DNA of 64,000 nucleotides from assembly GCA_963281255.1 (NCBI GenBank), contig OY725499.1:62001-126000 (forward strand), given 5' to 3'. The stretch is from Aphrocallistes beatrix. Lineage: Eukaryota; Porifera; Hexactinellida; Sceptrulophora; Aphrocallistidae. The stretch's first letter is position 1, and each line of letters begins with the position of its first letter. Below, in pieces: positions 2,925-40,712 of the stretch. Below the pieces are notes generated by a model. The model was not told where the DNA came from. It ran no database searches and worked only from the letters and a program-made list of their open reading frames with translations. Position numbers and translations under genes: made by a program.

Positions 2925-5585
2925 ATGGCAAAAAGTTTTGAAGAATTATCAGACCTTATCGAGATAAGTGACCAGCTGTCATCTGAAAATGTCCAGAAAC
3001 TGAAAGCATTACTGAAAATACCAGCTGCAATCGCTGACAAAGTTACTGATGGTACAACGCTTCTAACCACATTGCAAGACTGGGGTGAACATAATCCATC
3101 TCTGTTCTACGATGGAATGAAAGAAATAGGAAGATCTGACCTGTTGGAAATATCCAAAAAGTATCCATGGTTAGCTTCAGGAACTTCCATTGAACGAGAA
3201 AAGGAAACTTCTGTCCAAAGTCTCGTAACAGTTTTGCAAAACGAACTCACTGACAAAGACTGGAACCGAATCAAACTAATGAATCCCACTATTAATGTGT
3301 CCCTGCCATTTGATGCCAAATTGGAATTTCTCCTCCAGAATCGTTACATCGACACTGACCTAACACAGCTAACTAAACTATTATCAACGATTAAACGTGA
3401 AGATATCGCAAATATTGTTCAAAAACATCAGCAGTATTTCACTGAAAATCCTTCCCTGGTGTCAAATTTCGCAAAGCACCTCAACGTTGTCGAGAAGGAT
3501 ATTGCTCAATGGAATGTTTCCCTCAAGAAATACCTAGAACTTCAGAATAAGAAAGTTCAGCAGATGCTAGATGACGAAGAAAAGGTGGATCTCGAATCCG
3601 TATTCGTTCCTTTGACGATTATCAAAGAAGAGCCCAGATTAGTGAATCCAGAGGACGAGACCACCTACAATGAAATCGCATTTATGCGTAAAATCGCAAG
3701 CAAACAAATCGACATCACACCTGTCGATTTCGATGAAGAATTAAAAAAATATTTACCCTCAAATCCTAAAAATCCGAAAATAAAACCACAAATCTGGTGC
3801 CTCATCGGGAATCCTGGCTGCGGCAAGACATTTCTTTGCCATAGGATAGGCCTTCTTTTCGGTCAAAGCAAACTTCCACAATTCTCCTTCGCTGTTTCCA
3901 TTCCTTGTCGGAACGCAGAATGGCACCAAATGGAACAGAGCAAGAAAGTGTCTGTTGGCATCAATACGGAATTCATACAAAACTGGCTCTGCTTATCCAT
4001 GCCAGTCAATGCCAGCTGGCGTTCCGACCTTGCGAAACATCTCGTTGAGTCAGACGGTGAAGGACTTCTCATTATCATTGACAGTCTAGACGAGTACACC
4101 AAAGAAGTTCCCTTCCAACGAACTCTCCTCTTCCTTCTCCTCACGAGAAAAGTCCTAACATCCTCCACCATCCTCGTGACGAGCCGTCCAGGTGCTTATA
4201 CAAACATTTCTTCCAACTTCCAACTCAGCATCGACCGCTTTTATCAAGTCCTCGGATTCTCTCCTGAGAACCGAGACCTCTACTTCCGCATCCAACTTCC
4301 AGAACAGGAGAAACTGGATCAGTTGAAGTATTTAATCCACCTCCATGACGATATAAACCAGCTCTCTCTCGTGCCAGTAAACGCGTCATTATTCGCAGCT
4401 CTTGTTCGTGAAAATGATAATGTGAGCGCCTTCACCCTCACACTCCTCTACACAGAGTTGATCAGCTACCTGATCAGGCGACAACTCTCAAGAATGAACT
4501 TGAAGCACCTGGCCAAGAAACAGTTGTTTCCCCGAATGCATCCAGATGTAGTGGATTGTCTGCATCGCGTCGGCGAGGTAGCCTATCTCGGAGTGTCCAG
4601 TCGAGAACTGACCTCCACGAAGGACATCCTCCTTAACGTGGACGGAGTAGATGAGGCATGCCAGTGCTTGGGCCTGGCAGAAGAGCACATTAAGAAGCTC
4701 CCTCATGGCAAAGTTGTCCGTGTGTGGTGTTTTTCCCACCTGACCATCCAAGAGTTTGTCGGTGCCAACTGGTTGCGCAATTGTTCATGGAGGGACCAAT
4801 GCCTAAGCACTCGCTACATTGTCAACTCCGATGACAACTTTTCAGTGTTTAAGATGGTGGTGAGGTTTGTGTGCGGTTTATTGTCCGACGATGCAGACCT
4901 GATTCTCTCCATCCTGTTCAAATTCATTCCAACCAAGACAGTTGACATGATCCAGATGCCACTGATATGGCAACTCAACTATGACAAACAATTTCTCAAA
5001 TATTCGGGTTGTAAGGAATTTACTCGAGATTTCTTAGTTTTGTCTGAAATGCTTTTTGAATGCGACTCCAAATCGGTTTTAAAATCATTTTCGAAATTCC
5101 GTCGTTTCCTTCCTGAGTCGCTATACTTCTATTTGGATGATTCCATATCTCCTAACGAGTGGAAGTGTTTCTTGAAGTCGCTACGTCTCCTCCGTTCCAT
5201 ACAACTAATATATTTCAATACAGAATACTTCTCTCCGTCTCAGTTCAGATCATTACTGGAGCATCTGCATACTTGTTCCCTGAGATACTTAGCAGTGAGG
5301 TTCGATGACGTAGGCTTTTCCACTTTCTCTTCTTACAGTGAAGTCCTGGAAGAGATTCAGCTACCTCCTGGAACTAAGCTTAGTTTGGAACTTGAAGATT
5401 GTGACCTCATAGACAGTGACTCAGCTGTTCATGTGTCCAATCTTCAGATTCTCAAACTATCCACGAGTTTGTGTTTCGATTATACAGAATTCCCGCCTAA
5501 ATTTCTTAAGCAAATAGGGAATCAATTGAAGTACATTGAGAACTTGCACTTTAGTCCCAGTAACTCCGAAGAAAACGAACTTTAA
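2925..5585 (+). CDS. NLR-type receptor, tandem DED-like domains plus NACHT
   Basis: 886 aa from the ATG at 2925. This start follows a strong acceptor (cctcttttttag) by 10 bases. The 48 extra in-frame residues upstream translate an old transposable element and are rejected. Residues about 3-80 look like a death effector domain: LSS/LK helix pattern and GRSDLL near its end. About 98-180 is a second, more diverged one ending KREDI. The NACHT domain follows, with P-loop GNPGCGKT near residue 295 and Walker B LLIIIDSLDEY near 380, then winged-helix-like sequence. Family knowledge: NLRs are cytosolic pattern sensors that oligomerise on nucleotide exchange and recruit death-fold adaptors. The frame ends in TAA at 5583-5585, but a leucine-rich frame continues directly in another phase. 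The gene is therefore either frameshifted, mis-assembled, or spliced in a way I cannot resolve. Confidence 0.85.
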   Translation: MAKSFEELSDLIEISDQLSSENVQKLKALLKIPAAIADKVTDGTTLLTTLQDWGEHNPSLFYDGMKEIGRSDLLEISKKYPWLASGTSIEREKETSVQSLVTVLQNELTDKDWNRIKLMNPTINVSLPFDAKLEFLLQNRYIDTDLTQLTKLLSTIKREDIANIVQKHQQYFTENPSLVSNFAKHLNVVEKDIAQWNVSLKKYLELQNKKVQQMLDDEEKVDLESVFVPLTIIKEEPRLVNPEDETTYNEIAFMRKIASKQIDITPVDFDEELKKYLPSNPKNPKIKPQIWCLIGNPGCGKTFLCHRIGLLFGQSKLPQFSFAVSIPCRNAEWHQMEQSKKVSVGINTEFIQNWLCLSMPVNASWRSDLAKHLVESDGEGLLIIIDSLDEYTKEVPFQRTLLFLLLTRKVLTSSTILVTSRPGAYTNISSNFQLSIDRFYQVLGFSPENRDLYFRIQLPEQEKLDQLKYLIHLHDDINQLSLVPVNASLFAALVRENDNVSAFTLTLLYTELISYLIRRQLSRMNLKHLAKKQLFPRMHPDVVDCLHRVGEVAYLGVSSRELTSTKDILLNVDGVDEACQCLGLAEEHIKKLPHGKVVRVWCFSHLTIQEFVGANWLRNCSWRDQCLSTRYIVNSDDNFSVFKMVVRFVCGLLSDDADLILSILFKFIPTKTVDMIQMPLIWQLNYDKQFLKYSGCKEFTRDFLVLSEMLFECDSKSVLKSFSKFRRFLPESLYFYLDDSISPNEWKCFLKSLRLLRSIQLIYFNTEYFSPSQFRSLLEHLHTCSLRYLAVRFDDVGFSTFSSYSEVLEEIQLPPGTKLSLELEDCDLIDSDSAVHVSNLQILKLSTSLCFDYTEFPPKFLKQIGNQLKYIENLHFSPSNSEENEL

Positions 5586-24319: not shown

Positions 24320-27001
24320 CTACCATGCAACTGGCGCCGAGGGTGTCGGGCTACCATCCCTAAGTTGCGTAAGCACAGGTGCGTTTGGTGGGACGTTATG
24401 AGAGAATCGCTTCATTTCAAAGCTTTCGTCTGGTGTTGAGTAGACAGGTGGAGGTTGGTCTGGGATGCCCGTCGGTTGGTTCGCAAATACATACGGTTTC
24501 TGTTCAGAGCTTACAATACGTGGGCCTACAGGAACAGGGACAGGTTCTTCATGATCACTTTCGAACCATGTTTCATGATCGCGACGTACGCCATACCTAG
24601 CCACGACAAAAGAGAAGATAGACGATATGACGAGGAAAAAGAGTGCCCAACCAAGACAGAACCAGTACACATTAAAATTGCTGATAATCCCACGACACGT
24701 CACATCTGTAAATGCGTCATAGATTCCAGGGATGAAATTGCACCGTGGAAAATTGTCTCGAATATAATTCGTGTAGATAATCACGTTGGTATCCAACGTC
24801 GCGATAGAATCGTTAATCAAGGAGTCAGTAAGCCTGGAAAGGTTGGCAGCGAATTGGTTGACAGTATTCGAAGCCTCGGTTAGAGTCATATTAACAGCAT
24901 TCAGTTCATTGTTAATCGTGCTCAGCGATGTTGTCGTTGAGCTGATAAGAGAGTTTGCCTGTGGAATCAAATTATTCATAACGTTATCTAAGTCAGAGAG
25001 GATTTCCACTGCACTTGCTCGCGTTGCAGCTAGACTTGTGCTACCACTCGAATCAATTTGAGAGATTAAATTCATAACAGGTGTTCTCGCCTGCGAGATC
25101 TGTTGAGAAACTTGGGTAGTACTTAACTCAGTTGTTATGTCATTAGCGGCATCAAAATTATATTGTGAAGTATCGTATTGGTTAATTGAAGAGGTATAAC
25201 TGTCTACTATCCCGGCAGAAATAACATTAGGATTGATTTGGTTTCGAACGTCAGAGACTGTGTTGTCTAACAAATCCGTAACATTCATTATGATTCTGTT
25301 CGTCAGGGCTTCAGCTTGAAATGCTTGTAACAGATTCTCGTCATTCTCACACGAGTCAAAGATGCGAGAGATATTCAACTGCAAATCAAAAGTGCCAAAA
25401 CTCCCAACTTGAATATTTGAAAAATTTAAAGGTATACAAGGCGTGATAAACCGTAGAAGAGAACGGTCAACGAGCGGTTGACAAACAGTGCTAGAAATAC
25501 CGCCAAATATGAAAAGAGCAACAAGAATAGGCGCCAAAATCCAAGTTATACAGAAGCCCGCGTAGCCTGAGATAGCGAGGAGCTTAGCAGCGCAATTCGA
25601 AGAGGATTTCCGCATGGAAGGCTGTGCTTCATGATCATAACTGACTAGTGTGATAATCGCACCAACAATGGCTAGAATTATGTTGACAAGAACCACACAG
25701 AAGAGTATTATCGAAATGGCTAAAAGGATCTTGTACGCGATTTCATAGTTACGCGTAAACTCGGATGGAGGAACATTTATCAACTGAAGGAGGCTATTGA
25801 AGTTGCTAAAATTGTTAAAAATTTGTCGGAATGTATCTGTAACTGAACTGATAGCGCTTAAATCAAAAGATCCCAGGACATTCAGATCGCTAAAGTATTC
25901 CATGAGAGTGTTAATCTCGCTGTCAACTCGCGTAGAGATATTCGCTACGAGGCTTGAAATCTCAGTCGTGTTAATATCGTTTAGTGTAGCCACAGAGGAT
26001 GATATATCTGGTATGTTGGAAGCGGATAAACCTGTCGTGACAGAATTCGGAATTGAATTACAGTTTGACAACCCGTTATTATTACATTCGGTTCTTAGAT
26101 TGGACAATTTCGTGCTTACAGACATTGCTTCGCTGTTCAAATTCGTCACAAAATTAGAAGCACTATTGAGTGTGGCATTCAGCATATTAACTGATACAAC
26201 CAGCGCGTTAATTTGATCTATCGTCCCATCCAAGTCACTTGCGAGTGAAACCAAGCGATCCCCGAATGAAGTATTAAAAAGTCGCTGCACTTGAATGATA
26301 GTCGCTTCAAAAGTTGAGTTGAGTTGAGTGTCAATAGTGAAATTCAATTGGTCAACTATGCCGGAAATGGAATTGTTTAGAAAACCGAGAGAAGTGTCAA
26401 CATTGTTTGGTAAGTTGGAAATGTAGTTGTTAAAACTGACATAGGACAAGATCCCGAAAACGCATCCCAAAAATGAAACAGCAAGAAGGAGTAGAAGAAT
26501 CGGGGTCCATATTATAATATTGATCCCGGTACATCCAGGGGTGACGTTCTGAGTATCACTCGCTCCACAGTTCTTACAGAAGACCCTGCAGCAACACACA
26601 ACGATACAAGTAATGCAAATCGACAGTCCACAACACAGACCAAACACACCAAGGATCACAAATCCAACCAGCCAATTGGTGAAGAGAGTGGGACTAGAAC
26701 TTCCTAAGTTTAGAACCATATCGAGATTCTGTATAACGCATGAAGAATTCGTAGCTTCTAGTGCCGCATCGAGGATAGGAGATACACCTTGAGAAACCCC
26801 GAATACGATTCCATCGCTAGCTGAGTAGAGCCATTCCAGGTAGCTTGGGTTGTTGTATGTCGGTAAGCTCGATTGTCCGGTAATACTGTCTGGTGGCGGG
26901 TTTAAGGCAAGGGTGCCATTGGGCAGGATGACGTAGTTCTCCTGGGTTTGTGCAGCAACGATCGATACGAAGCTGACAATGACTATGAAGTGGAGAAGCA
27001 T
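24320..27001 (-). CDS. Prominin-like five-span membrane glycoprotein, intronless coding region
   Basis: 893 aa in one exon. The order of parts matches prominin (CD133): signal peptide (MLLHFIVIVSFVSIVAAQ), a short extracellular stretch, and TM1 followed by a cysteine-rich cytosolic turn (CITCIVVCCCRVFCKNCG). TM2 (IIIWTPILLLLLAVSFLGCV) leads to a long extracellular loop rich in N-glycosylation sites. TM3, TM4 and a second long loop follow, then TM5 (YWFCLGWALFFLVISSIF) and a proline-rich cytosolic tail. Prominins organise plasma-membrane protrusions and bind cholesterol; this is family knowledge. Tweety-type channels also have five spans but are much shorter. The ATG lies 21 bases after a possible acceptor (tatttgcag). 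Vertebrate prominin genes have many coding introns, so one exon here suggests an old retrocopy or complete intron loss. The assignment rests on topology and the cysteine motif. Confidence 0.85.
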   Translation of the reverse strand: MLLHFIVIVSFVSIVAAQTQENYVILPNGTLALNPPPDSITGQSSLPTYNNPSYLEWLYSASDGIVFGVSQGVSPILDAALEATNSSCVIQNLDMVLNLGSSSPTLFTNWLVGFVILGVFGLCCGLSICITCIVVCCCRVFCKNCGASDTQNVTPGCTGINIIIWTPILLLLLAVSFLGCVFGILSYVSFNNYISNLPNNVDTSLGFLNNSISGIVDQLNFTIDTQLNSTFEATIIQVQRLFNTSFGDRLVSLASDLDGTIDQINALVVSVNMLNATLNSASNFVTNLNSEAMSVSTKLSNLRTECNNNGLSNCNSIPNSVTTGLSASNIPDISSSVATLNDINTTEISSLVANISTRVDSEINTLMEYFSDLNVLGSFDLSAISSVTDTFRQIFNNFSNFNSLLQLINVPPSEFTRNYEIAYKILLAISIILFCVVLVNIILAIVGAIITLVSYDHEAQPSMRKSSSNCAAKLLAISGYAGFCITWILAPILVALFIFGGISSTVCQPLVDRSLLRFITPCIPLNFSNIQVGSFGTFDLQLNISRIFDSCENDENLLQAFQAEALTNRIIMNVTDLLDNTVSDVRNQINPNVISAGIVDSYTSSINQYDTSQYNFDAANDITTELSTTQVSQQISQARTPVMNLISQIDSSGSTSLAATRASAVEILSDLDNVMNNLIPQANSLISSTTTSLSTINNELNAVNMTLTEASNTVNQFAANLSRLTDSLINDSIATLDTNVIIYTNYIRDNFPRCNFIPGIYDAFTDVTCRGIISNFNVYWFCLGWALFFLVISSIFSFVVARYGVRRDHETWFESDHEEPVPVPVGPRIVSSEQKPYVFANQPTGIPDQPPPVYSTPDESFEMKRFSHNVPPNAPVLTQLRDGSPTPSAPVAW

Positions 27002-27041
27002 TGACTAGCTGAGGCTATAATGCTGCAAATAAACAAACATA

Positions 27042-27800: not shown

Positions 27801-30800
27801 TCAATGGTCACCGTATTCATTCTCGGCCACCTCGGGGGAATTGTACAAAGAGTGCCTAGGTTCTGGTTCTTTATCAGAAGTCTTTGCTACCTCGTTATAT
27901 ATACCTTTGGTAGCCTGTTCATCTGCTGCTGGGAAATCGCTTATTTCATTATAGGCTGATTTCATTTTAGGAGCTTGAGTATCAAACTCACTAATTTCAT
28001 TATAAGCTGAGTCTATCTTTTGAGTCTGACTAATACTGAGATTTGGGTCAGGGAGGTAGACATTTTCTTCAATCGTAGCTCGCTCGTATTGGGGATTAGA
28101 TGTGACGGCTGTGGCCGGCTTTAAGTCACCAAATTCCATACCAGCGTAAGCAGGGTTATTCGTAACACCTTCGTCTACTTGGAAACCAGGAATCTCTTCA
28201 TAGTTATTTACGTCTAATGATTCATATTGTCCGTCTACATGTAATAATATGATTATAATATACTTGGAAACACAATGATGCAAGGAACAGAAATCATGAA
28301 TTTGAGGTAAATGGATACTTCACAAATGATCTCAACTCGCTTATAACCAGGTGCTCGCAACTGCTGATACAAAAACATTTGTATACTAAGCATACAGTTA
28401 GAGCTGCCAACATCTGCTGATTCGTAATAGTATAAAACGCTGAAGCACAATTACGTATTACATATTTACTTACCTTCTCTGACCTCAACCGTTTTAGTCT
28501 TCATCGATCGAATGATACAACACGCACAGATTAGGAAGCAGAGTAGGATTAAGATGATTAAGACAAGGAAACCACTCACTGGGATGATTATATAGTACAC
28601 AAAGTCATCCAATGGAATTCCTAGAGTTGAGAAAGGTGAAAATAGAAGTAATGCGGAAATGGTTCGACTTTTCGAAAAAGGAAATAGTTCGAATTGCGGA
28701 TTTAGGAAATACTTTTTATCATTAGGATTAATGGTGGTTTTCATGTGAACTATTTCCTTTTTTGGAAAGTCGAACTATTTCTGTGTTTTTTTTGCGAAAT
28801 ATTTCCACCATACCAAAATAGATAACCTTTTAACAGCAACCTCGGTTGCAATATAGAGAATAATCCCATTCGCAATCTAGGTTGCTATAAAAAAATTTTA
28901 AAGATACTTTTGAAAATCCTTAAAATATTAGCACAATTGTCAAGCAAGAAAGAAAAAATTGATTGAGTATGTAATTGGTATGTAAGCATGGCAGCTTATC
29001 AATCAATTACCAATTCAATCATAATAAATCTTTACTTACCCGTGATTGCAGCTAGAGAAAGAAAAAGAACAAATAAGTACAAATTTAGATATATCAGACA
29101 TTTTTAAATCGTGTCCTCTTACCAGATATTGCTGGGTTGCAAGTAAGTGGGTTTAGACCTAAAATACATTTATATCGTTATTATACTATTATACTATAAA
29201 TTTGAGGATACTATGTATGTAGTACCTTTGAAAAAAACTTACCAATCCCTGAGTTGGGACATTGGCAGAAATAAGAACCATCAGTATTGGTACAATTCAC
29301 ATCTACTGGACAAGTATTAAGCACGGGCAGTGAGCACTCGTCAATGTCTGATTCACAATTAGAACCAGTATAGCCTGATGGACAGTTACAGCTGATTGTT
29401 CCCGTCGTCAAATCCACATCCGTGCATGTTCCTCCGTTTAAGCAGGGGTTTGGAAGGCAAGATGTGTTATCTGTAGAGAGAACAATATACACAATACTCA
29501 ATTTTAGAAGTTGGGTTCTCCCCATGGCGTTTTCAGTGATCCACCGATAAGCTTTCGGATACATAGAGTATCGACTAATATTCCTTCCCCAGAAGGACGA
29601 TTAGTCTTTATTATTTCTAATCGAAGGCATATCGGTGATATCTCTTATATTAAAAAATCTTAGGGAGAACATTTAAAAGTATAATTTAACTAACCATGTA
29701 AGCAGATTAGACCTCTCCAAGGATCTGGACAATCGCAAGTGTATTCGTTGCGTCCATCAACACAAATACCACCGTTGTGACAAGGAAACCCGTTACACTC
29801 ATCAATATCTAGATTTTTCAAGTGTAAACAAATATTTGATTTTATTCATCAATTAATTAATCATTAATAACCTAGCGGAAGCAAATTGAAGTGGTACGGC
29901 AAAAATATACGTTGCCATACCAGGAAGACAAATTCTGAAAAAAATTGTACGGCAAAATGTGGTGTTGCAATAGTAATATCATAATTTCCGGGACGGGACC
30001 GTCCCGAAAAATCTAGATACCTAATTTCCGGGACGGGATCCCGTCCCGTCCCGGAAATAAGGTACATTTTCTGTCCCGTCCCGGAGATTAGGCATCTTGA
30101 CTTGTCCCGTCCCGGAAATTAGGTACCTAGATTTTCCGGGATGGTCCCGTCCCGTCCCGGAAAATAGGCATGCCCAATTTTAGAGAAAAGGTGATATGGT
30201 AAATGCCGTACACGCCGTATCGCTTCCGCCGAGTCTGTATATACCCCAATGAAAACTATTTTTCTTGGGGGAAGCAAAAAAATTCGAGAGAGAGGGTTAA
30301 CAGACTCACTGATATCACAACGAAGTCCTGTGAAGCCCGGTAGACATCTACACTCGAATGCATCATCTGTTGCATTTACACATTCCATCACGTTGGATTG
30401 GTTGCAAGGGTTAGTTGCACAGGAAATGCCTAGAAAAACCAATTTGTTAATGTAGAACTAATAAGGATAGTCTATGGTGAATTAATGTACTAACCTTGCC
30501 GGCAATAAGTGCCGGTGTAACGTTCTTCGCAGGTACATTCGAAACCATCTACCAAATCTGTGCATTCACCAAAAGTTCCGCAAACAGAACTTGAGTTTGG
30601 GAAAAGATTCGTGACTGAGATAATCTCTGTGGCACACTCGTTGATCTCGATACTACACTCAATGCCAGTGAAGCCAGGAATGCAGTCACATCTGTGGTCG
30701 TTTATTAAATCGACGCATGTGCCATTTATACACGACACATCAATACAGTCGTTAATATTTTCGCCACAAAATGTACCACGAAACCTAAAAGAGCATTTGA

Positions 30801-33800
30801 AATGACAATAAAATCCAAAATATTGCCATATATTATGCACCCTTTTATCTGATTCTAGTATGTAGAGCTCTGAAAATAGCATTTGGGACACAGTGAAATA
30901 CTCGAGAAGCCGTGAACCAGTGGTGTTTCTAGTTTTCTCAAACTGGAGGGGCAAAGGGGGGAAGGTAAAAGTATGTGTGGACTATAGCCCCCCTTGCTCC
31001 TCCCAGCCTAGATACGCTCCTGCAGGCATAACGCAATCAAGCGAATCATGTCTTATTGCAGATATAAAAGATTATATAGAATTCGTGTCCATTTCGTCAT
31101 TTTTACTTAATCTGTGATCATAATGAATAAATGAGTATAAACCAAGGTTGAAACGGCTTCAACCAAATACCAATTTAACCGAATAATGGTCAGACCAAAT
31201 AATTTGGTCAACCAAATAATTTAGTTAACCAAATTATTCTGTTGTTACAACTAAATTATTCGGTTTTCAACCGAATACCAAATAAAGATATTTGGTTACA
31301 AACCGAATATCAACTACAGTCGACTCCACTTAATAGGGTCACATCGGTCAGAGGACATTTTGCCCCGATTAAGCGGAGAACCCTATTAACCGAAAATTCT
31401 TTTGTATTAACTTCTATGTGTGAGAGCTATTCCGGTCCTGCCAAAAGTGACCCGATTAAACAGTGACCCTATTAAGCGGAGTCGACTGTATTTGCAAGTA
31501 TTATTTGGTTAAACCGAATAATCAACTATCCGTGTGCAACCCTGGTATAAACTTACCCTAACACACACTGACAAGTGTAATTGAATCTGTTATTAATACA
31601 AGTTGCATTATTTAAACAGAAGTTATCCATCGCACAGTAATCCGTGCGATCATTGCAGGCTGGGCCTTCAAACCCAACAGCACAAGTACAGTTGAACCCT
31701 CCTGGAAAGTTGGTACAGTTGCCGTCGTTATTGCATGGACTCAAATTGCATTCATTTATATCGTCCTGACATAAAGTACCTAAATAAAGAAGAAGAATTT
31801 TTGATTTGTAAGTAAAAAGGTACGAAGTGACACAATTGTGTCGCGAGGTGTTCGCTAAAAATCATTACTAACTTCATTGACCCAAAATATTTTTACATCT
31901 TGAGGCCAAACTTCACTTAATTCACTCAATTGGTTTCCCAGGGAGAAAAATTAAAAATTTTAAGGTACATATATGGTATGGTGGAAAAAGTTCGCATAAA
32001 AACCGGAAATAGTTCGACTTTCCAAAAAAGGAAATAATTCGCAAAAAAAACCCACCATTAATCCTAATGATAAAAATCGAACTATTTCCTAAATCTGCAA
32101 TTCGAACTATTTCCTTTTTCGAAAAGTCGAACCATTTCCGCATTACCATATAAACAGATAGCCCATATTGTGAATTTGAGTATATATCCCATTTTCTTGG
32201 TTCTCACCATCATATCCCACTAGACACTGACACCTGAAGCTATTCCCAGGTAGATCGATACAGTTAGCACTGTTATTACAAGGATTCATGGCTGTAGGGC
32301 AATTTTCTTGATTGTCTCCGCAGTAGATGCCGATAAAGCCATTACTAGAAGAAAATATGAATTACTAGAAGAAAATATGAAGAAAATATGATATTAGAAT
32401 GGAAAAGATGAGAGATTTTTTATTTTCCTCCAAGAAAATAAAAAGGTAGTTAGTAGCAAGTAAATTCTACTCTGTCAACTCACATGCAGGAGCAATTAAA
32501 TGGAGGATCTCCAGTGGCATTTGAACACGAAGCTCCATTCAGACACGAGTTAAACTCTGGAGAACAATAATCCGGATTGGGATGATCGATTGCATCTAGT
32601 CAAACAAAATAAATAAGTTCGCTATGAAACATAAGATGAACTGCTTATAATTACGAGTTAACTCACTTAGAGTACAATCCCTCCCAACGAATTGGGCATC
32701 TGTGCATTCACATACGTATCCATTCACGAAGTCAGTACAGTTACCATTATTCCCGCAAGGGTTGATGGCACACTCGTTGATTTCTGTTAAAAAAATAAAA
32801 TAAAAAAATAAAAATGATTTCTGTTAAAAAAAGAAAAAAAAGGTCAGAGGACATTTTGACCCGATTAAGCGGAGAACCCTATTAACCGAAAATATTTTGT
32901 ATTAGCTTCTAGGTGTGAGAGCTATTCTGGTCCTACCAAAAGTGGCCCGATTAAGCGGCTGACCCGATTAAACAGTGGCCCTATTAAGCGGAGTCGACTG
33001 TAATTCGTTTTTCTAAATTAAAAATAGGAAAATGACCATATATAGAATGTCGACTATCATACATTTAATCAAATTCTATATTCAAATAACCAATGAGGTA
33101 CATACAGATATTAAAAGGGTACCAATCATCCACGTATATATATTCGTATAGGGACAGGACATATTAAGGTAAAGGTGTTAAAACTTCAACAAAAGAAGCG
33201 GGGAAATTGCCTACCATCCCATTGAGTTCCCCCTGATACCAATCATCGTTTAACTTCTCCAGGAGATCAATGATTTGACCTGCTTCAAATATCAAATCTC
33301 CGTCTATCCCTTCATTATAATCGAACAGGGCTTTTGCCCTTGGGAGCAAATCGTCGTTCAATTGTGTAACGTTCTTTAAAGGATCGACTTTTCGAGGCGT
33401 TTTCAACGTCTCCGGCGGTGAATCCTGTATTTTTTCGATGAAATTCGCCGGGAAAATCCCTTCTTTCCCTTTCAACTCTCCCTGCAGCCATTCATCACTG
33501 AGGGTAGTTATATTGGTGATGACGTCACCGGTTTTGAAGGCTAAATCTCCTTCGGAACTACCAGGAAAATCGTAGATCGCTTTTCCACTGTATCCAGTGT
33601 CAGATTTCGCAGGTTCACTGGTAACAATGGGAGTTATGGGCTCAGGTTTTTGTTCTTCGACGACAGCTACCTCAGGAAGTGGTTCGACAATTTCGATAAA
33701 GGTTTCCGGAAATATACCCTCATCACCTCCAGTAGGCAAGATACCTTTGTACCATCCATTTCCCAACTTCTCCAATAAATAGACCATTCCTCCTTTAGAC

Positions 33801-36800
33801 AGGGGCAAATCACCCGATTGATCCCCGAGAAAATCGAAGATAACTTTCGCACGTGGCCCTTCCATCGAATCAGCTGGGTCAGGCGGTCCCTCCTCAAGGT
33901 CGGTTACAATCTCAACGTGAACTTTAGGGAACATCCCACGTGCATGCGACTTTTCACACTCCCCTTCCATCCAATCCTTGCTCAGATACTTTATTAAGAA
34001 AATGACATCTCCTTTGGAGAAGTTTAGATCACCTTCTACGCCAGACAAATAATCACTCCTGGCCACTGCGAAAGGTTTATCATCCGAGATCATCTGTCCA
34101 TCTTCATCAGGCAATTTACGAATAACTTTAACATTAGAAACCAGCACCAAACCTTCCTCATCTCCTTCATTAGCACAGAAGTACCAATGCTTGTCTAAGC
34201 GTTCCAGCAACATCAGAAACTCGCCCTTACTCAAGCTGAGCACATCTGGCTGTGTGCTGGGGAAATGTGTGGTGGAGAATCCGTGAGGTTCAGTGCACAC
34301 GTATTTATACAGAGGATGTCCTGGCTCTGGGCGTGGTGGTAGAGCAGGTGCGGTTTGTTTGGCGCCAATTTTTGTTGGGTCGTGGTGTCTCGCAGGTGGA
34401 GCCACCTGTTGTTTCGGGTTCTCCGGTCGTGAAGGTTTTGAAGGTGGGCCAACCGGTTTGGGAGGCGGGATTTTCACCTGGGGTGCTACGCTAGGTTGTT
34501 GCGGTTTTGGAGGAGGAAGTTTTTCTCTCTGAGGTGAGTCTGTGTTAGAAATGGGCACGGGCGGTTTTGCCGGTGAATTCTCAAGTTTGGCGACTGGAGC
34601 GACCGGTCGCTTAGGTGTCGGTTTTGTACTCCCCGGTCCAACGGTGGTGCCGGTATTGACAATAGCCGGTTCTTGTGGAGTGGTTTTCGGTGAGGAATGT
34701 TTGGCGATTGGAGGTGGGGGTGCTTTTCTTGCCGACAACTTTCGTGGTAGGGCAGCTGGCGGTTGAATTTCGGGTGCAGCCTTGTTTGAATCCGTTTCGT
34801 TCGTTACCGGTACAGTAGGATCAGGTAACGGCAAAACTGGTCTGAGTGGAGGTGGGTTTCGTGCCGGTGAAGGTGGTTTTCGTGGGACATCTGTTTCGAC
34901 GTTTTGTTTGGTACTTTTATCTAGAATGTTCGATAGGAAAATGTCAGAGGGAGGAGACGTCGGTCGATTTGGTTGTTTTTCTTCTTTTTTCGCGAAATTT
35001 GGCGGTGCGCTTGGTCGAGAAGGTAAATCCTCTTCTGTCGCTTGTTTATCATCTGACGCAGGTATCTCGAAATTGATATAATTCGCTGGTTTGGGAGGAA
35101 TTGGTTTTGAGGTGGACGCTTTTGCTTTACTCCTAGGCGGGAGAACCTGATCTCCACCACCCACGTCTGTCTCAATGGGGCGCGAAACCAGGTGAAACGG
35201 CTGAGTTTTCGTAATCGGCTGTGCCGAAATAATCGTAATATCTGCATTCGCATTGTGTACAGACGGATTTGGAGGCTTCACCGTTTTCGTGTAAGGTGTC
35301 GGAGCGGACGGAGTGTTTGAACCGTGTGGGGGAGGCTTCGGGGGCGGCGGTCGAGGGTTCGCCGGTTTTCGGGTTGAGGGATGATTGGGAGGTAAGGGGG
35401 GAGGACCCCTCGAAGCTACTGGGGCTCCTTCGTCTGCCATTTACTTGCAATTCGGATTTACTATTGCTAATCGTGTATTATGCGAATGGATTGAATTGAC
35501 TATTATTACAAGTTATAGAGATCAGTTATCATATTGTGTAGATTAAAAACCATGGATTATTACCCCCGGATGCCTTGGGTTTTTTCTATTTATAGTAAAT
35601 ACTCCGAATGTTTATGGCTTCCCCGCCCAAAATGGCTTAAACCGGAATGACGCGACACATTCCAGGAGCAACGGAGGGATTATATATATTATTAATTTGG
35701 ATTATATCTAGGACATGGTCAAATAATATTCAGATGGGGTGCATGCATTGGTCAGAATTTTGAAGTGCTATTTGTCAGAATAAATCATATTTTTGTCACT
35801 TATCAGAATGGAGTTTTGTAACATGTCACTTGTCAGTATTCATTATTGGTCTACAAATACTCCATTCTGACAAGTGTCATTATCATAAAACTCCATTTTG
35901 ACAAGTTAAAGTATTACAAACCCAATTCTGGCAAGTAACAATCTTAAAATACAACATTAATTATTCTGACAAATGCAGCTCCCCATTCAGATAGGCCTCA
36001 ATCAAATTACGTATATTACTCCAAATGTATTAAAATTTTACAATTGTTTGGGGTCCATTCTTTTTATGGCAAAGACCCGTAGCTTATGGTTTCCCCGCCC
36101 AGAATGATTTAACCAGAAATGAGTTAGCAAAATCCTTAGCCCATCGCTGTGTTTAATAAATAATATTACAGTCAGGGTCGCTTATTTATTATGAACTAAT
36201 CTCCTGGTCCCAATTTCATTTTAGGATTTGTATTGAATCAAGTTTGCTTAATATGAAGTATCTCTATTATGAACAGATGTTTTGGTCCCCTGGTGGTTCA
36301 CAATAAGCGACCCTGGCTGTACTAAGGATTAGGATTTTGCTAACTCATCCCGGGTTAAGTCGTTTTGGGCTAAATTTGGGTCTTTACTATAAATAGAATT
36401 ACTCCAAGGCAAATTCGAATATATTAATCGTTGAAACTTGAACTAAAGTAATTTTAAGAATTCGAGCTATTTAAAAGTAAGTAGCGCATGCGCTGCATTT
36501 GAGTAGTGCATGCGCTGTACTACTCAAAAGCAGCGCATGCGCTACTCAAATGCAGCGCATGCGCTACTTACTTTTTAAATATATGAAGAATTCATATCTA
36601 TGCACTTATAAGTGCCATTCTGATTGCTAAGAAACCCATGCAATTCGAAGAAATTTGAAGTATAATAATTATCTTAAAAGGTCGAAGCCTATATAATTGT
36701 TCCCCAAGAGGATATCTAACTAATAAATATTAGTAAATTTCCGTGTGGGGTGAATGTATGCACATATATCAGTACTCACCATTCTCGCAATAGAATCCTG

Positions 36801-39800
36801 TATATCCATCTGAACAGTCACAAGAGAAACTGCCTACCTCATTCTGGCAAGTACCGAAGGAACAGTTGGATGTGGGACAATTATCGATAACTAAAGCAGG
36901 ATAATTTCGAAGTTAGAAACACCACAGGCCGTACCACTGAGCACGTGCTATACCACCAAAGGGACTGGACAAAATTGGCCGTTATACACAGGTGACCGTT
37001 ATATACAGGTGATTGTCTTAATCCCCAAAAGGTATCAACGTAGTGCAATAAATATAAAGTTTTTAGAAATCCATTACTTGAAGTAATTACATGAAACTTG
37101 TTTATCGTTCGTAACAGGTCCTGTAATAAACACATAAAAAGGTGAAAAAGGTGATGGCCGTTATAGACAGTTTTAGGGTCAGTAAGGGACTACAAACGGG
37201 TGGCCGCTGGCCGCGTTGTGCAGGTGACTGCTATACACAGGTTCAATATTATGGAATTTCGGACGGGACTGTTCATTGGTGACCGTTATATAGAGTGGCC
37301 GTTATACCAGGTTGGACTGTACACGTATAAACATTATATATACGCTTTAAACAATACATTAATCTGTCTACCTAATTCACAATTTTTCCCTTCATAGCCT
37401 AATACACAATCGCAGTCATAGTCTGTCATATGATTGATACAGGATCCTCCGTTCTGACATGGACTTGCCGGGACGCAGAGATCAATCCCTAAAATGAAAC
37501 AAAAAGATTTAGATTTATTAACAGAACAGATGGTCACACCTTATCATGGAACTGAATACATATAGTTGCATACATGCCAACTTGAGCTGGTAAAAGCGGG
37601 ACGCAATAGAAAAGTGTTATACATGGGATCTTAGAAAGCGGGACATAAAAGTGAAATTTCATGAAAAAACGGGACACTCGTTAAAATTAGCTCAATAGTC
37701 GAGTGAAAAAAAAGCGGGATGTCCCGCAAAAAATGGGACGGTTGGCATGCATGACACCTGTTGTAAGAACAGACTAAGTGACTACAACTGGTTATAAGAA
37801 CCTACAGGTGACTACACCTGGTTATAAGAATCTACAGGTGACTACACCTGGTTATAAGAACCTACAGGTGACTACACCCGGTTAAAAGAATCTACAGATG
37901 ACTACATCAAGTTATGAAACAGACGATTACATCAGGTTTTAAGAAAGGAGTAGATGACTAGTATAGACTAACTACACCTTGTTATAAGAACGGAACAGGT
38001 TTTCACACTTGGTTAAAAGAATGACAGCCAATTTTTAACAAAAGAGAAGAATTGGGAAAATAATTTTATATGAAGGTATCACAAACCTGTATCACATGTC
38101 ATACCAGTATACCCAGCAGTACAGGTACATTGGTATGAATCAGTTCCAGTATTAGTACAAGCTCCATTGTTGCATATGCCAGGATTGTGATCACACACGA
38201 ACAAATCTAAGAAAAAAGTAAAACATCACATTGGATTCAGTTGATACTATTCATGTTGAGAAAACAGGCTACATACCTTGATTACAAAGGGTGCCAGCAT
38301 ATCCAGAGTTGCAGGTACAGGTGAAAGGAGAAGTACAAAATCCGTTTACCGAATCTAGTGTGTAATACAATTGTAAGAGCGGTCAAGATAAGCCATTCAA
38401 AGGAGAAGAAACCTCACAGAGTAGAAGAAAACCTACCACAACCAGTTAATGGTATACACTGGTCACAAATCGTTCCCATCCATCCATTATCGCAGCTAGT
38501 AAACAATAAAATCGTTTAAATATATCTAGGAAATATTCAAATGGAATCTAGTAATACTCACTTGCATTGATTTGGCACTGTACATCCACCATTTAGACAA
38601 CCAAAAGTACAAATTGCTAGAGGTATATAAGAGTTTAACATTTCCAGATATTTATGCACTACTTTTCATTATTATTAACCATTAACAGAGTTCTCTCCAG
38701 AATTTTTATTGAAGTCTTGTTGCCATCGAAACAAAGGTGTGGCCACCCCAAGGACAAGTAGGGAAAACCTTCTTCCATAGAAAGGAATATCGGTTAAAGC
38801 AGGTATATATGATGTCCCTTTATCAAATTTTGAGTCTAAAACGTCGAATGGTTTAGAGAGAACCGTGTTGATCAAATATTGCACTAGAAACTCACGTGTT
38901 TTGCATTCACTGCCTGTGTAATCAGATGTACACACACGACTCCCATCACTTGGGTTACATGTGTAATATCCGAATTGAGCACTATTTTGCGCTATACAAA
39001 ATACATTGCAGAGTAATCCGTAGTAATTTGCATCGCAAGCTATAGTAAAAGAGATGGTCATTGTGCCACTCGTAACTCCCAGGAAGGTTGTTTCAGCAGA
39101 AAGACTGGAAGTAGATTGGGCGATTATATTCAGTGCAAATCTATCCATTAGATCGTTGTTACCGTCAAAATCTCGATCCCACATTTGGACGAAAAGTTGT
39201 TTATAACCCTAGTGGATTCATATAATCATATAGGTATGAACTTATATCAGAATGTCCTGATTTTAAACATCCTATTCCCCTCTAAGCTACTCTAAAAAGA
39301 GATCAATATTAAAACCTGCGCTTGGCTAAGTGATTTTTTCTATTTATAGTCAGACCCCAAACTTGTATGGCTTCCCCGCCCAAAATGGCTTAAACAGGAA
39401 ATGACGCTACAAAACACCTCGCCAAGCGCGGGTTTTAATTAAGTAGCTTATTTGAAATGTAAGAATTTGATAAATAATTCACACCACTACTTTGAAAATA
39501 TCACTGGACATACCTAATTTATGGAATGTACGGTTCCGGAATTTTAATGCCTAATTTACGGAACACTCAGTAAATTAGGCATTTATAATATCCGTGGAAT
39601 GGAATATTCCGTAAATTAGGCATTTAAAATTCCGGAACCGTACATTCCATAAATTAGGTATGTCCAGTGATATTTAGTTCGTAAATTAGGTATGTCCAAA
39701 TAACCGCATTCATTTGTTTGAGCTACAACATGATATAGCAGTATGCTCTAATAAATAATTATGTAACTAGAGCGTAACTACTGACACAACGTGCAAAAAC

Positions 39801-40712
39801 AGTTACTGTTAACTTACCGTGAAAGCATTGTCTACCCTCAATCCCAGGGGATTCGATACAACACCTCCCGCAAACGTGCTCCCAGGGTTTATTGTATTTT
39901 GCTCTGAATAGTAACCGGAATCAATATATAGATTACCCGGACAGCTTGTATCACTGACAAGAGTTCCAAAATTTCTCCAACAAAAGCTGAAATAGGGATC
40001 ACATGAACAAGCTATATCACAACATGCTCCATTGAAATCTGTACCGCTTAGTTTAGAAAATTGAATTATTTTCACTTGCAATGTCCCGACAGAAAATATC
40101 GGCGGAATCTAGAAGAATATTTTCTAGATAAGTCATGCAAATATAAACTTCTGTCAACGCTTGTGTTTGTTAGAAATGTCCTCTCTATTCGTTTGTTAAA
40201 ATTTATTCTGAAATAAATAATTATAATTTGTAAAAGAATACTCGATATTGATGTCAATATGTTGTATTCCTTTGCAAATTATATACAGTCGACTCCGCTT
40301 AATAGGGTCACATCGGTCAATGAATATTTTGACCCGATTAAGCGGAGAACCCTATTACCCGAAATTATTTTGTATTAGCTTCTATGTGTGAGTGCCATTC
40401 CGGTCCTGCCAAAAGTGGCCCGATTAAGCGGTTGACCCTATTAAGCGGAGTCGACTGTACTTGTTTCTTTCGGAATAAAATTTAACAAACGAATTGAGAG
40501 GACTCTTCTAACTGAACAAAATGTCAATTCAGAAATTTGATTGTAAAATAGTAAAATATTTTAAACCAATGATTTATCAACAAAAGAGGCTATTCAAACG
40601 TAAGAAAAAGGTTAAGTTAAAAAATTTTAATGCTTAAAGTTTGAACAGTCACTTATCGGGTGCTATATCTTACCAAAACTTGAATGATGAATAGAAAAAG
40701 AAGACACTTCAT
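27801..40712 (-). CDS. Notch ligand (Delta/Jagged type) with a tyrosine-rich tail
   Basis: 21 exons whose phases all agree, total 3153 nt (1050 aa): 40674-40712, 39818-40108, 38896-39208, 38562-38616, 38437-38495, 38277-38354, 38087-38206, 37372-37488, 36780-36890, 32667-32783, 32484-32595, 32208-32344, 31557-31779, 30495-30784, 30310-30429, 29695-29808, 29243-29470, 29123-29158, 29040-29051, 28474-28620, 27801-28234. Order: signal peptide (MKCLLFLFIIQVL), MNNL domain (CCDIACSCDPYFSFCWRN), DSL domain (YYGLLCNVFC ... CTSDYTGSECK), about 16 EGF repeats, TM helix, 144-residue cytosolic tail. Family role: cell-surface activation of Notch on neighbouring cells. The EGF number resembles Jagged, but no cysteine-rich VWC region follows. 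The tail has YEEI, NPAY, NPQY, two SAYNEIS and IYNEV. Intron 32784-36779 contains SH3D19. Confidence 0.92.
28652..28814. repeat. MITE-like element, family H
   Basis: Family H copy with ends aatgcggaaatggttcgact and the inverse gaaatatttccaccatacca. It lies just upstream of the transmembrane exon of the Notch ligand, within an intron. Confidence 0.8.
29983..30175. repeat. Repeat family F, GGGACGGGAC palindromes
   Basis: Alternating units of taatttccgggacgggac and its complement gtcccgtcccggaaatta with short spacers (ctagatacc). The whole can fold on itself several ways. A second copy is at 59988-60075. A related but different design (cctaatttatggaatgtacg) is at 39505-39700. It lies in an intron of the Notch ligand. 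Confidence 0.85.
31140..31545. repeat. Inverted-repeat element with a nested family B element
   Basis: The outer element has ends ccaaggttgaaacggcttca and the mirrored gtgcaaccctgg. It is rich in attatttggtt/aaccaaataat phrases. A complete family B element (31315-31490), ends CAGTCGACTCC and GGAGTCGACTG, is inserted near its right side. It lies in an intron of the Notch ligand. Confidence 0.8.
31974..32154. repeat. MITE-like element, family H
   Basis: Family H copy with the longest middle of the three; it contains both the accattaatcctaatgata and the cctaaatctgcaattcgaac phrases. It ends at the donor side of the EGF exon 32208-32344. Confidence 0.8.
32840..33002. repeat. Family B element, left end missing
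   Basis: Starts inside the element at ggtcagaggacattttgacc after a poly-A-rich stretch. It runs to the intact right end GGAGTCGACTGTA. It lies about 160 bases downstream of the SH3D19 stop codon, in the host intron. Confidence 0.75.
33164..35440 (-). CDS. SH3D19: SH3D19-type adaptor, five SH3 domains, nested in an intron
   Basis: 758 aa in one exon. The first half (about 1-370) is proline-rich with many PxxP motifs. LPPRPEPGHPLYKYV then leads into five SH3 domains at about 375-445, 455-512, 530-588, 618-670 and 698-755. The last two are the most typical (ALFDYNEGIDGDLIFEAGQI ... GNFPASFVEVL). Length, order and the LPPRP-PGHPLY-KY junction match SH3D19 (Eve-1/EBP, about 790 aa, five SH3). SH3D19 binds ADAM cytosolic tails and endophilin-type proteins in trafficking, from family knowledge. 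It lies wholly inside a 4-kb intron of the Notch ligand on the same strand. The intronless state suggests an origin by retrotransposition, or intron loss. A possible acceptor (gaattgcaag) precedes the ATG by three bases. Confidence 0.93.
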   Translation of the reverse strand: MADEGAPVASRGPPPLPPNHPSTRKPANPRPPPPKPPPHGSNTPSAPTPYTKTVKPPNPSVHNANADITIISAQPITKTQPFHLVSRPIETDVGGGDQVLPPRSKAKASTSKPIPPKPANYINFEIPASDDKQATEEDLPSRPSAPPNFAKKEEKQPNRPTSPPSDIFLSNILDKSTKQNVETDVPRKPPSPARNPPPLRPVLPLPDPTVPVTNETDSNKAAPEIQPPAALPRKLSARKAPPPPIAKHSSPKTTPQEPAIVNTGTTVGPGSTKPTPKRPVAPVAKLENSPAKPPVPISNTDSPQREKLPPPKPQQPSVAPQVKIPPPKPVGPPSKPSRPENPKQQVAPPARHHDPTKIGAKQTAPALPPRPEPGHPLYKYVCTEPHGFSTTHFPSTQPDVLSLSKGEFLMLLERLDKHWYFCANEGDEEGLVLVSNVKVIRKLPDEDGQMISDDKPFAVARSDYLSGVEGDLNFSKGDVIFLIKYLSKDWMEGECEKSHARGMFPKVHVEIVTDLEEGPPDPADSMEGPRAKVIFDFLGDQSGDLPLSKGGMVYLLEKLGNGWYKGILPTGGDEGIFPETFIEIVEPLPEVAVVEEQKPEPITPIVTSEPAKSDTGYSGKAIYDFPGSSEGDLAFKTGDVITNITTLSDEWLQGELKGKEGIFPANFIEKIQDSPPETLKTPRKVDPLKNVTQLNDDLLPRAKALFDYNEGIDGDLIFEAGQIIDLLEKLNDDWYQGELNGMVGNFPASFVEVLTPLP
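35551..36380. repeat. Repeat cluster in the Notch-ligand intron
   Basis: Three parts. At 35551-35670 there is a family G copy (ctatttatagtaaatactcc ... ggcttccccgcccaaaatgg). At 35745-35990 there is an inverted array of cattctgacaagt/acttgtcagaatg phrases. At 36050-36380 a second family G-like element is interrupted by a family A element (36167-36321). Other family G copies are at 39313-39438 and 41180-41304. Confidence 0.7.
36167..36321. repeat. Family A element inside a family G-like element
   Basis: Bounded by TA, with ends CAGTCAGGGTCGCTTATT and AGCGACCCTGGCTG. It is about 20 bases shorter than the other copies. The host sequences on the two sides (gagttagcaaaatcctta and taaggattaggattttgcta) are themselves inverted. 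Confidence 0.8.
36478..36576. repeat. GCGCATGCGC repeat cluster
   Basis: Four copies of gcgcatgcgc-like palindromes, spaced by ctgcatttgagtagt and its complement, so that the whole stretch is itself palindromic. The start is aagtagcgcatgcgctgcat and the end mirrors it. A related GCGCATGCGC pair bounds the element at 58505-58735. Confidence 0.85.
36960..37322. repeat. Interspersed repeat, family E
   Basis: About 360 bp, repeated in opposite orientation at about 60575-60990. Both carry many short ataacggtcacc/ggtgaccgttat phrases and the shared run gtttatcgttcgtaacaggt (or its complement). Non-coding. It lies in an intron of the Notch ligand. Confidence 0.8.
37762..37985. repeat. 30-bp minisatellite
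   Basis: Tandem units of ctacaggtgactacacctgg followed by ttataagaac. About five units are well kept at 37795-37920, with worn units on both sides. It lies in the Notch-ligand intron between two EGF exons. The phrases caggtg and cacctg make each unit partly self-complementary. Confidence 0.85.
39313..39438. repeat. MITE-like element, family G
   Basis: About 125 bp with ends aaaacctgcgcttggctaag and cgccaagcgcgggtttt. The inside contains cttccccgcccaaaatggct. It is nearly identical to 41180-41304. Confidence 0.85.
39505..39700. repeat. Palindromic taatttacgg repeat
   Basis: Alternating cctaatttatggaatgtacg and complementary phrases around a centre near 39590. The arms pair from acatacctaatttatggaat to attccataaattaggtatgt. 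The design resembles family F but uses different words. It lies in an intron of the Notch ligand. Confidence 0.8.
40283..40459. repeat. MITE-like element, family B
   Basis: Intact copy: TACAGTCGACTCCGCTTAAT at the left and GCGGAGTCGACTGTA at the right. It lies in the first intron of the Notch ligand, between the signal-peptide exon and the MNNL exon. Confidence 0.88.

Follow-up and report, generated by a model that had tools for sequence, protein, structure and literature searches.

Do Notch ligands signal into the cell that carries them? This is an old and unsettled question, and it is raised anew by a 64,000-nucleotide stretch of the genome of the hexactinellid sponge Aphrocallistes beatrix (here, the window), in which a sequence-only reading saw a Notch ligand whose cytosolic tail is built of phosphotyrosine docking motifs. 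Notch ligands have to be pulled into the sending cell, and tyrosine motifs in a ligand tail could in principle serve this step, signalling in the sending cell, or both. Here, we ask whether the gene encodes a Notch ligand, whether the tail belongs to it, and what the tail may do.

We built the gene model from the genomic sequence, using splice borders, the open frame, Pfam matches, and the frames of paralogues. The ligand gene has 21 exons on the minus strand (40712-27801) that join into a single frame of 1,050 residues with a stop only at its end, and it encodes an MNNL region, a DSL domain, EGF repeats, a single membrane span, and a cytosolic tail of 156 residues, of which 144 come from the last exon and 12 juxtamembrane residues from the exon before it. 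The features of the gene and of a second gene nested within it are as follows.

40712-40674, 40108-39818, 39208-38896, 38616-38562, 38495-38437, 38354-38277, 38206-38087, minus strand: ligand exons 1 to 7 (GT/AG joins)
37488-37372, 36890-36780, 32783-32667, 32595-32484, 32344-32208, 31779-31557, 30784-30495, minus strand: ligand exons 8 to 14 (GT/AG joins)
30429-30310, 29808-29695, 29470-29243, 29158-29123, 29051-29040, 28620-28474, 28234-27801, minus strand: ligand exons 15 to 21 (GT/AG joins)
39818..40108, minus strand: first part of the MNNL (N-terminal C2-like) region (Pfam MNNL; aligned to DLL4, 5mvx)
38897..39037, minus strand: DSL domain, residues 168-214 (Pfam PF01414)
28474..28620, minus strand: membrane-span exon, with a single span at residues 866-894 and juxtamembrane basic residues (hydrophobic stretch by eye)
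27801..28234, minus strand: tail exon, 144 residues and a stop, DGQYESL...EYGDH (read from the sequence)
33164..35440, minus strand: nested single-exon gene with five SH3 domains, inside ligand intron 9 and not part of the ligand (Pfam)

The DSL domain scored 37.7 bits in the ligand protein (cut-off, 24.2) and 42.9 bits in the genome search, and Pfam also returned EGF_DL_JAG (74.9 bits), JAG1-like_EGF2 (27.2 bits), and EGF repeats. The MNNL region was just over its cut-off (22.6 versus 22.5 bits) when residues 1-110 were scanned alone and was absent from the Pfam output for the full-length protein at an E value of 0.001. By phmmer, residues 21-278, MNNL region included, matched the DLL4 structure 5mvx with an E value of 4e-32, and the whole or part of these residues also matched structures of Jagged-1, Jagged-2, DLL1, fly-type Delta, and Serrate; the top match of the ectodomain outside the ligand family was fibrillin-1, at 1e-7. 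Given these Pfam domains and the DLL4 and Jagged structure matches, with fibrillin-1 far behind, the gene is identified as a DSL ligand, and the claim that it encodes a Notch ligand is borne out. Within the Delta/Jagged family, Delta-type is used here as a provisional label. Binding and activation of Notch is its predicted role, and a Notch gene exists in the genome (L027; C11:4.177 Mb), with EGF repeats, two LNR, and ankyrin repeats, and with a furin-like RVRR and a span recognized by eye; NOD and NODP gave no match at an E value of 0.1 in the two Notch open frames scanned (3 kb). Two of the four LNR matches, on C16, were set aside as Notch candidates because their frame looks unlike Notch by eye.

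Elsewhere in the window, a 935-residue plus-strand frame at 2778-5582 with a DED-like region (33.5 bits, below the cut-off of 35.9) and NACHT is an NLR-like gene, and a single 894-residue open frame at 24320-27004 on the minus strand encodes a prominin. The ligand introns hold two types of short interspersed repeat, near 32980, 31480, and 40450 (minus strand) and near 32100 and 28730; one type begins AGTCGACTCCGCTTAATAGGG (by eye), and the repeats are probably small mobile elements.

A search of the genome (100.5 Mb, 28 contigs) yielded six DSL matches among 33 candidates: the ligand; two tandem, Delta-like, single-span paralogues of it (C19A and C19B); and three DSL-EGF-FN3 proteins, two on C19 and one on C1 (by Pfam for L012 and L013 and by eye for L010). 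At C19:2383000-2400000, EGF and FN3 repeats come after a DSL exon in L011 and L012, and in L012 a secretin-type seven-span domain with a GPS site is present as well; this is apparently a DSL-containing protein of the adhesion-GPCR-like kind. By word search, the term DSL is absent from an Amphimedon GPCR paper (PMC4302439), and among the papers listed in the literature search none combined adhesion GPCR, DSL domain, and sponge. The C1 protein (L013; C1:751000-760999) has one span and a 199-residue tail with two NPxY and five Yxx[ILVMF] motifs.

The tail exon (28234-27801) joins in frame to the span exon ending at 28474, with a GTAAGT donor and a TGTAG acceptor; the join proposed earlier between 28474 and 28234 thus holds at the level of sequence, and the tail exon is very probably the ligand's. 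More in need of scrutiny is the 4-kb intron 9 (36779-32784), which houses the nested gene. That gene is intronless, has a proline-rich front before its five SH3 domains, and is presumably SH3D19-like; its closest other match in the genome is just 30% identical, so that no close multi-exon parent was found. Because an intronless gene on the same strand lies within intron 9, the two halves of the ligand might be two genes, the 3' half with EGF repeats, span, and tail being a separate gene downstream of the SH3 gene, and exon phases give no discrimination here. Against this stand the paralogues, in which one open frame was best aligned to ligand residues 376-582 (C19A, 152 bits) or 376-607 (C19B, 145 bits) and crosses the exon 9/10 junction (residue 394/395), while the preceding frames are collinear, aligning to residues 258-378 and 261-384, respectively. 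These alignments, made with composition correction and masking off, are from the best 25 of 81 matches at that locus, and their registers are uncertain because EGF repeats cross-match, the next-best registers among the matches listed scoring 136 (C19A) and 140 (C19B) bits. Span and tail sit in one open frame in both paralogues, that of C19B including NPxYAGM. Moreover, if the halves were separate, the 5' one would have no membrane span and the 3' one no signal peptide (by eye). On the collinear frames over the junction we reject the two-gene reading at the level of sequence, and we regard a wrong gene model of this kind as very improbable.

The ten tyrosines of the tail lie in YESL, YEEI, NPAY, NPQY, VYLPD, two copies of YNEI, YNEV, YNSP, and EYGDH. 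The earlier description of the last exon, as 144 residues with about ten tyrosines in named motifs, reads as stated, and the motifs exceed those of shuffled tails. The main elements are the following.

28185..28205, minus strand: NYEEIPG, Src-family SH2-like site (read from the sequence)
28134..28175, minus strand: DEGVTNNPAYAGME, NPxY plus YxxM/Yxx-phi element common to C19B (9/14 identical)
28086..28097, minus strand: NPQY, second NPxY (read from the sequence)
27831..28004, minus strand: array of four YN(E/S) modules, YNEI, YNEI, YNEV, and YNSP, with a spacing of 17-18 residues (sequence and spacing)

The call of NYEEIPG is based on the specificity of Src-family SH2 domains. Relative to 20,000 composition-preserving shuffles of the tail, NPxY (2 versus 0.05 expected; p 0.001), Yxx[ILVMF] (6 versus 1.77; p 0.002), Y[DENQST][DENST][ILV] (5 versus 0.26), and Y-x-E-[IV] (4 versus 0.13) are all in excess, the last two counts being reached by 0 of 20,000 shuffles, and the p-values are optimistic because the motif classes were chosen once the tail had been seen. 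PPxY and Y-x-N have no match in the tail. SAYNEI fits the ITIM pattern, [ILVS]xYxx[ILV], twice as a string of letters, so that the tail resembles ITIM receptors in this respect; an ITAM (YxxI/L-x6-12-YxxI/L) is ruled out by spacing, since the closest pair, YxxI to Y, is 13 residues apart and thus beyond 6-12, and the ligand is not otherwise like an immune receptor. W and C are absent from the tail, 74% of its residues are disorder-promoting, its net charge is -18, and nine lysines among its 156 residues are ubiquitination candidates. It terminates in YGDH, without a C-terminal PDZ-binding motif, and the Neuralized-type motif N-x-x-N is absent from the tails of the ligand, C19A, and C19B and occurs once in the C1 tail.

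Along the tail, the gaps between tyrosines are 8, 18, 20, 10, 18, 17, 18, 18, and 10, and five successive tyrosines are thus separated by 18, 17, 18, and 18. Four consecutive gaps of at least 5 that differ by no more than one residue arose in 0.17% of 100,000 random placements (p 0.0017), and the best self-shift within the last 96 residues is 17 residues (p 0.024). Copies 1 and 2 of SAYNEIS[ED]F are identical at 8/9 residues, with synonymous differences in 4 of the 8 identical codons, and their first eight codons share 20/24 bases. Over 17-codon units, 28/51 bases are identical between copies 1 and 2, 20/51 between 2 and 3, and 21/51 between 1 and 3. The suggestion that the YNEI/YNEV repeats arose by internal duplication is therefore supported at the motif, by the even gaps and the 20/24 bases, and weak outside it. 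An old tandem duplication with the motif preserved would fit, on the strength of nine codons only.

We compared six other tails, those of C19A, C19B, the C1 gene, the C19 seven-span protein, a neighboring seven-span protein on C1, and the prominin of the window, leaving out the gene at C19:2171133. NPxY occurs in four of them (once in C19B, twice in C1, once in each seven-span protein; none in C19A or prominin), and three of these four have four or five Yxx[ILVMF]. Y-x-E-[IV], present four times in the ligand, occurs once each in C19B, C1, and the C1 seven-span tail and is absent from C19A, the C19 seven-span tail, and prominin. The YNE[IV] array is found in none of the six tails and hence in neither Delta-like paralogue. 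Given that NPxY is present in 4/6 other tails, it is unremarkable by itself, and the array is the distinctive part.

The ligand tail and C19B have DxGVxxNPxYAGM[DE] in common (9/14 identical), and their best ungapped 22-residue block was equalled by 0/300 shuffles; in NPxYAGM, 3 of 6 identical codons differ synonymously. In this test, which took in C19B, C19A, C1, the C19 seven-span tail, and prominin and left out the C1 seven-span tail, similarity of the ligand tail to the others was not significant (C19A, p 0.34; C1, 0.19; C19 seven-span, 0.94; prominin, 0.42), nor was that between the tails of C19A and C19B (p 0.55). C19A has DPLFAGTE in place of the NPxY element, which rules out an element common to all Delta-like ligands; with neither NPxY nor significant similarity in C19A, possession of the tyrosine strip varies among the Delta-like ligands of this genome. 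Conservation among the paralogues is therefore partial, with the NPxYAGM block in 1/2 and the YNE[IV] array in 0/2. Protein kept while synonymous sites drift suggests constraint on both the repeat and NPxYAGM, in stretches that are short.

A DNA pattern for NPxY-[AG]-G-M, AAYCCNNNNTAYGSNGGNATG, has three matches in the genome and none in the reversed control: the ligand tail, the C19B tail, and C1:1595301. The last is ruled out as a third tail, being antisense to a 278-residue open frame taken by eye for XPA. A protein search of the genome at E values up to 10 returned only the tail itself (one of two candidates). In a prokaryote contig collection, 49 stretches fitted the pattern and none was confirmed, a weak test of tail relatives because the collection is prokaryotic.

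Potential partners are encoded in the genome. SH2 matches number 62, a count that includes exon fragments of single domains split by introns, and there are eight PID/PTB matches, some partial. At C8:160251-163182, the domain order is SH2-SH2-PTP, which we take to be that of SHP-type phosphatases. Tyrosine-phosphatase domains give 155 matches genome-wide, exon fragments included; dense runs at C15:65915-276551 and C2:51758-86825, many paired and mostly in frames of ~600 to 1,000 residues, are a large tandem expansion. A Mind bomb-like REP-ankyrin gene at C6 has SH3_15 and ankyrin repeats, with a RING recognized by eye, and one Neuralized domain was found in the genome; a single, partial MIB_HERC2 match on C10 was rejected as Mind bomb and looks like HECTD1 by eye. 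In the portion of Gazave et al. 2009 (PMC2770060) on these ligases, nonbilaterians have Mindbomb and no complete Neuralized, and Placozoa have neither complete. With the Mind bomb-like gene, the Neuralized domain, and nine tail lysines, the ordinary route through ubiquitin is available, so that the tail tyrosine motifs need not serve endocytosis.

The reading that we prefer, and to which we give roughly balanced credence, is that the long, disordered, acidic Delta-type tail is a strip of tyrosine sites for docking and sorting, an endocytic and adaptor platform that phosphorylation could switch. NPxYAGM can be read as NPxY, Yxx-phi, and YxxM. The membrane-proximal, partly conserved NPxYAGM would be the endocytic core, recruiting PTB or AP-2-type adaptors and so leading to the ligand internalization required for Notch activation. 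Phosphorylated YEEI, YNEI, and YNEV would bind Src-class SH2 proteins, which may tune retention, turnover, or actin coupling of the ligand, or may signal in the sending cell. Against the docking strip, both NPxY motifs carry a threonine at -5, where many PTB domains favor a hydrophobic or aromatic residue.

The tail could also be purely endocytic, its unphosphorylated Yxx-phi and NPxY motifs serving AP-2 and PTB clathrin adaptors with no SH2 protein involved. Six Yxx[ILVMF] and two NPxY would suit such a tail, and the sole paralogue-shared element found, NPxYAGM, is both NPxY and Yxx-phi. It would also agree with the established role of ligand tails in endocytosis (PMC1965462). The repeated sites, however, carry Asn/Glu-Glu at +1/+2, which is typical of SH2 and not of AP-2 sites, and four near-equal YN(E/S) modules exceed sorting needs. 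We give the purely endocytic tail a modest chance. True reverse signalling would have Notch cluster the ligand, a Src-type kinase phosphorylate the array, and SH2 proteins, possibly including a two-SH2 phosphatase, signal in the ligand-bearing cell in the manner of ephrin-B. YEEI, the YNE[IV] array, the two ITIM-like SAYNEI, and the SH2-SH2-PTP gene are consistent with this, as are the reciprocal events in the signalling cell proposed for Amphimedon Deltas in the discussion text of Richards & Degnan 2012 (PMC3482393). Yet the array is missing from both Delta-like paralogues, and the kinase link is supposition; as a full account we find reverse signalling doubtful. Overall, reverse signalling by kinases is possible, and uptake by way of NPxY/Yxx-phi has at least an equal probability.

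Tyrosine motifs might instead be common in the receptor tails of this lineage, and the ligand tail ordinary, relaxed, and partly repetitive. The frequency of NPxY and Yxx[ILVMF] in the compared tails fits such a genome-wide habit, although the sample of DSL genes, one neighbor, and prominin is nonrandom. None of those tails has the array, and the synonymous drift under protein identity in the repeat and NPxYAGM argues for constraint, over short stretches; we consider the habit an unlikely explanation. A bolder extension of the docking strip would make the ligand also a receptor, with Notch contact leading to Src-type phosphorylation of YNE[IV] and recruitment of tandem-SH2 proteins, in a two-way Notch-Delta signalling of an early-branching animal that bilaterians later lost or reduced. 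We regard this as speculative and rather improbable.

Tail tyrosines of ephrin-B mediate reverse signalling. Like the ligand described here, ephrin-B is membrane-bound and bears tyrosine sites on a short tail; it belongs to another ligand family, and phosphorylation here is a prediction from motifs. Closer comparisons come from Notch ligands. The ectodomain matches structures of human DLL4, Jagged-2, DLL1, and Jagged-1, and the human tails are likewise disordered; in the sections of Pintar et al. 2007 (PMC1965462) on tails, SH2 and tyrosine-sorting motifs are predicted for some of them and bidirectional signalling is argued, and the human ligands differ in depending mainly on ubiquitin and PDZ ends, whereas the sponge tail ends in YGDH and has no N-x-x-N. 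AmqDelta1-5 of Amphimedon, as described in the relevant text of PMC3482393, resemble the ligand in the MNNL cysteine pattern, DSL, EGF repeats (except AmqDelta4), a single span, and tails that diverge from one another and are predicted to carry SH2, PTB, AP-complex, and SH3 sites. There, the ELM predictions comprise SH2 sites for AmqDelta1-4, PTB sites for AmqDelta2-5, and adaptor-complex sites for every AmqDelta except the first; the authors caution that ELM hits have no significance value. That text mentions neither an evenly spaced YNE[IV] array nor a shared NPxYAGM element, and all five reportedly have PDZ-binding sites, unlike the YGDH end here. The gene set seen here, with Delta, DED-NACHT, and a Notch without NOD or NODP matches, is sponge-like. 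Notch and MNNL-DSL proteins are reported in choanoflagellates as well, in the account of Richter et al. 2018 (PMC6040629).

The sequence-only reading knew of no Delta or Jagged tail organized as an SH2/PTB platform; with the predictions in the cited parts of PMC3482393 and PMC1965462, uniqueness is not upheld, and, given the AmqDelta tail predictions, the principle of an SH2/PTB tail is not new. No ligand tail like this one is described in the listed titles and abstract openings on Notch-ligand NPxY endocytosis, Jagged1 SH2 reverse signaling, and sponge Delta, a scope that mostly falls outside subscription journals. What the analysis adds is a gene model, statistics on the motifs, the regular spacing of the array, and conservation of part of the tail in a paralogue; the proposed mechanism is plausible. 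A dense and regular set of tyrosines is a clean object for separating sender-cell from receiver-cell effects, and the YNE[IV] array together with the sister-gene element makes this ligand a good test case for signalling into the ligand-bearing cell. It could also reveal what drives internalization when a tail is without the usual PDZ end.
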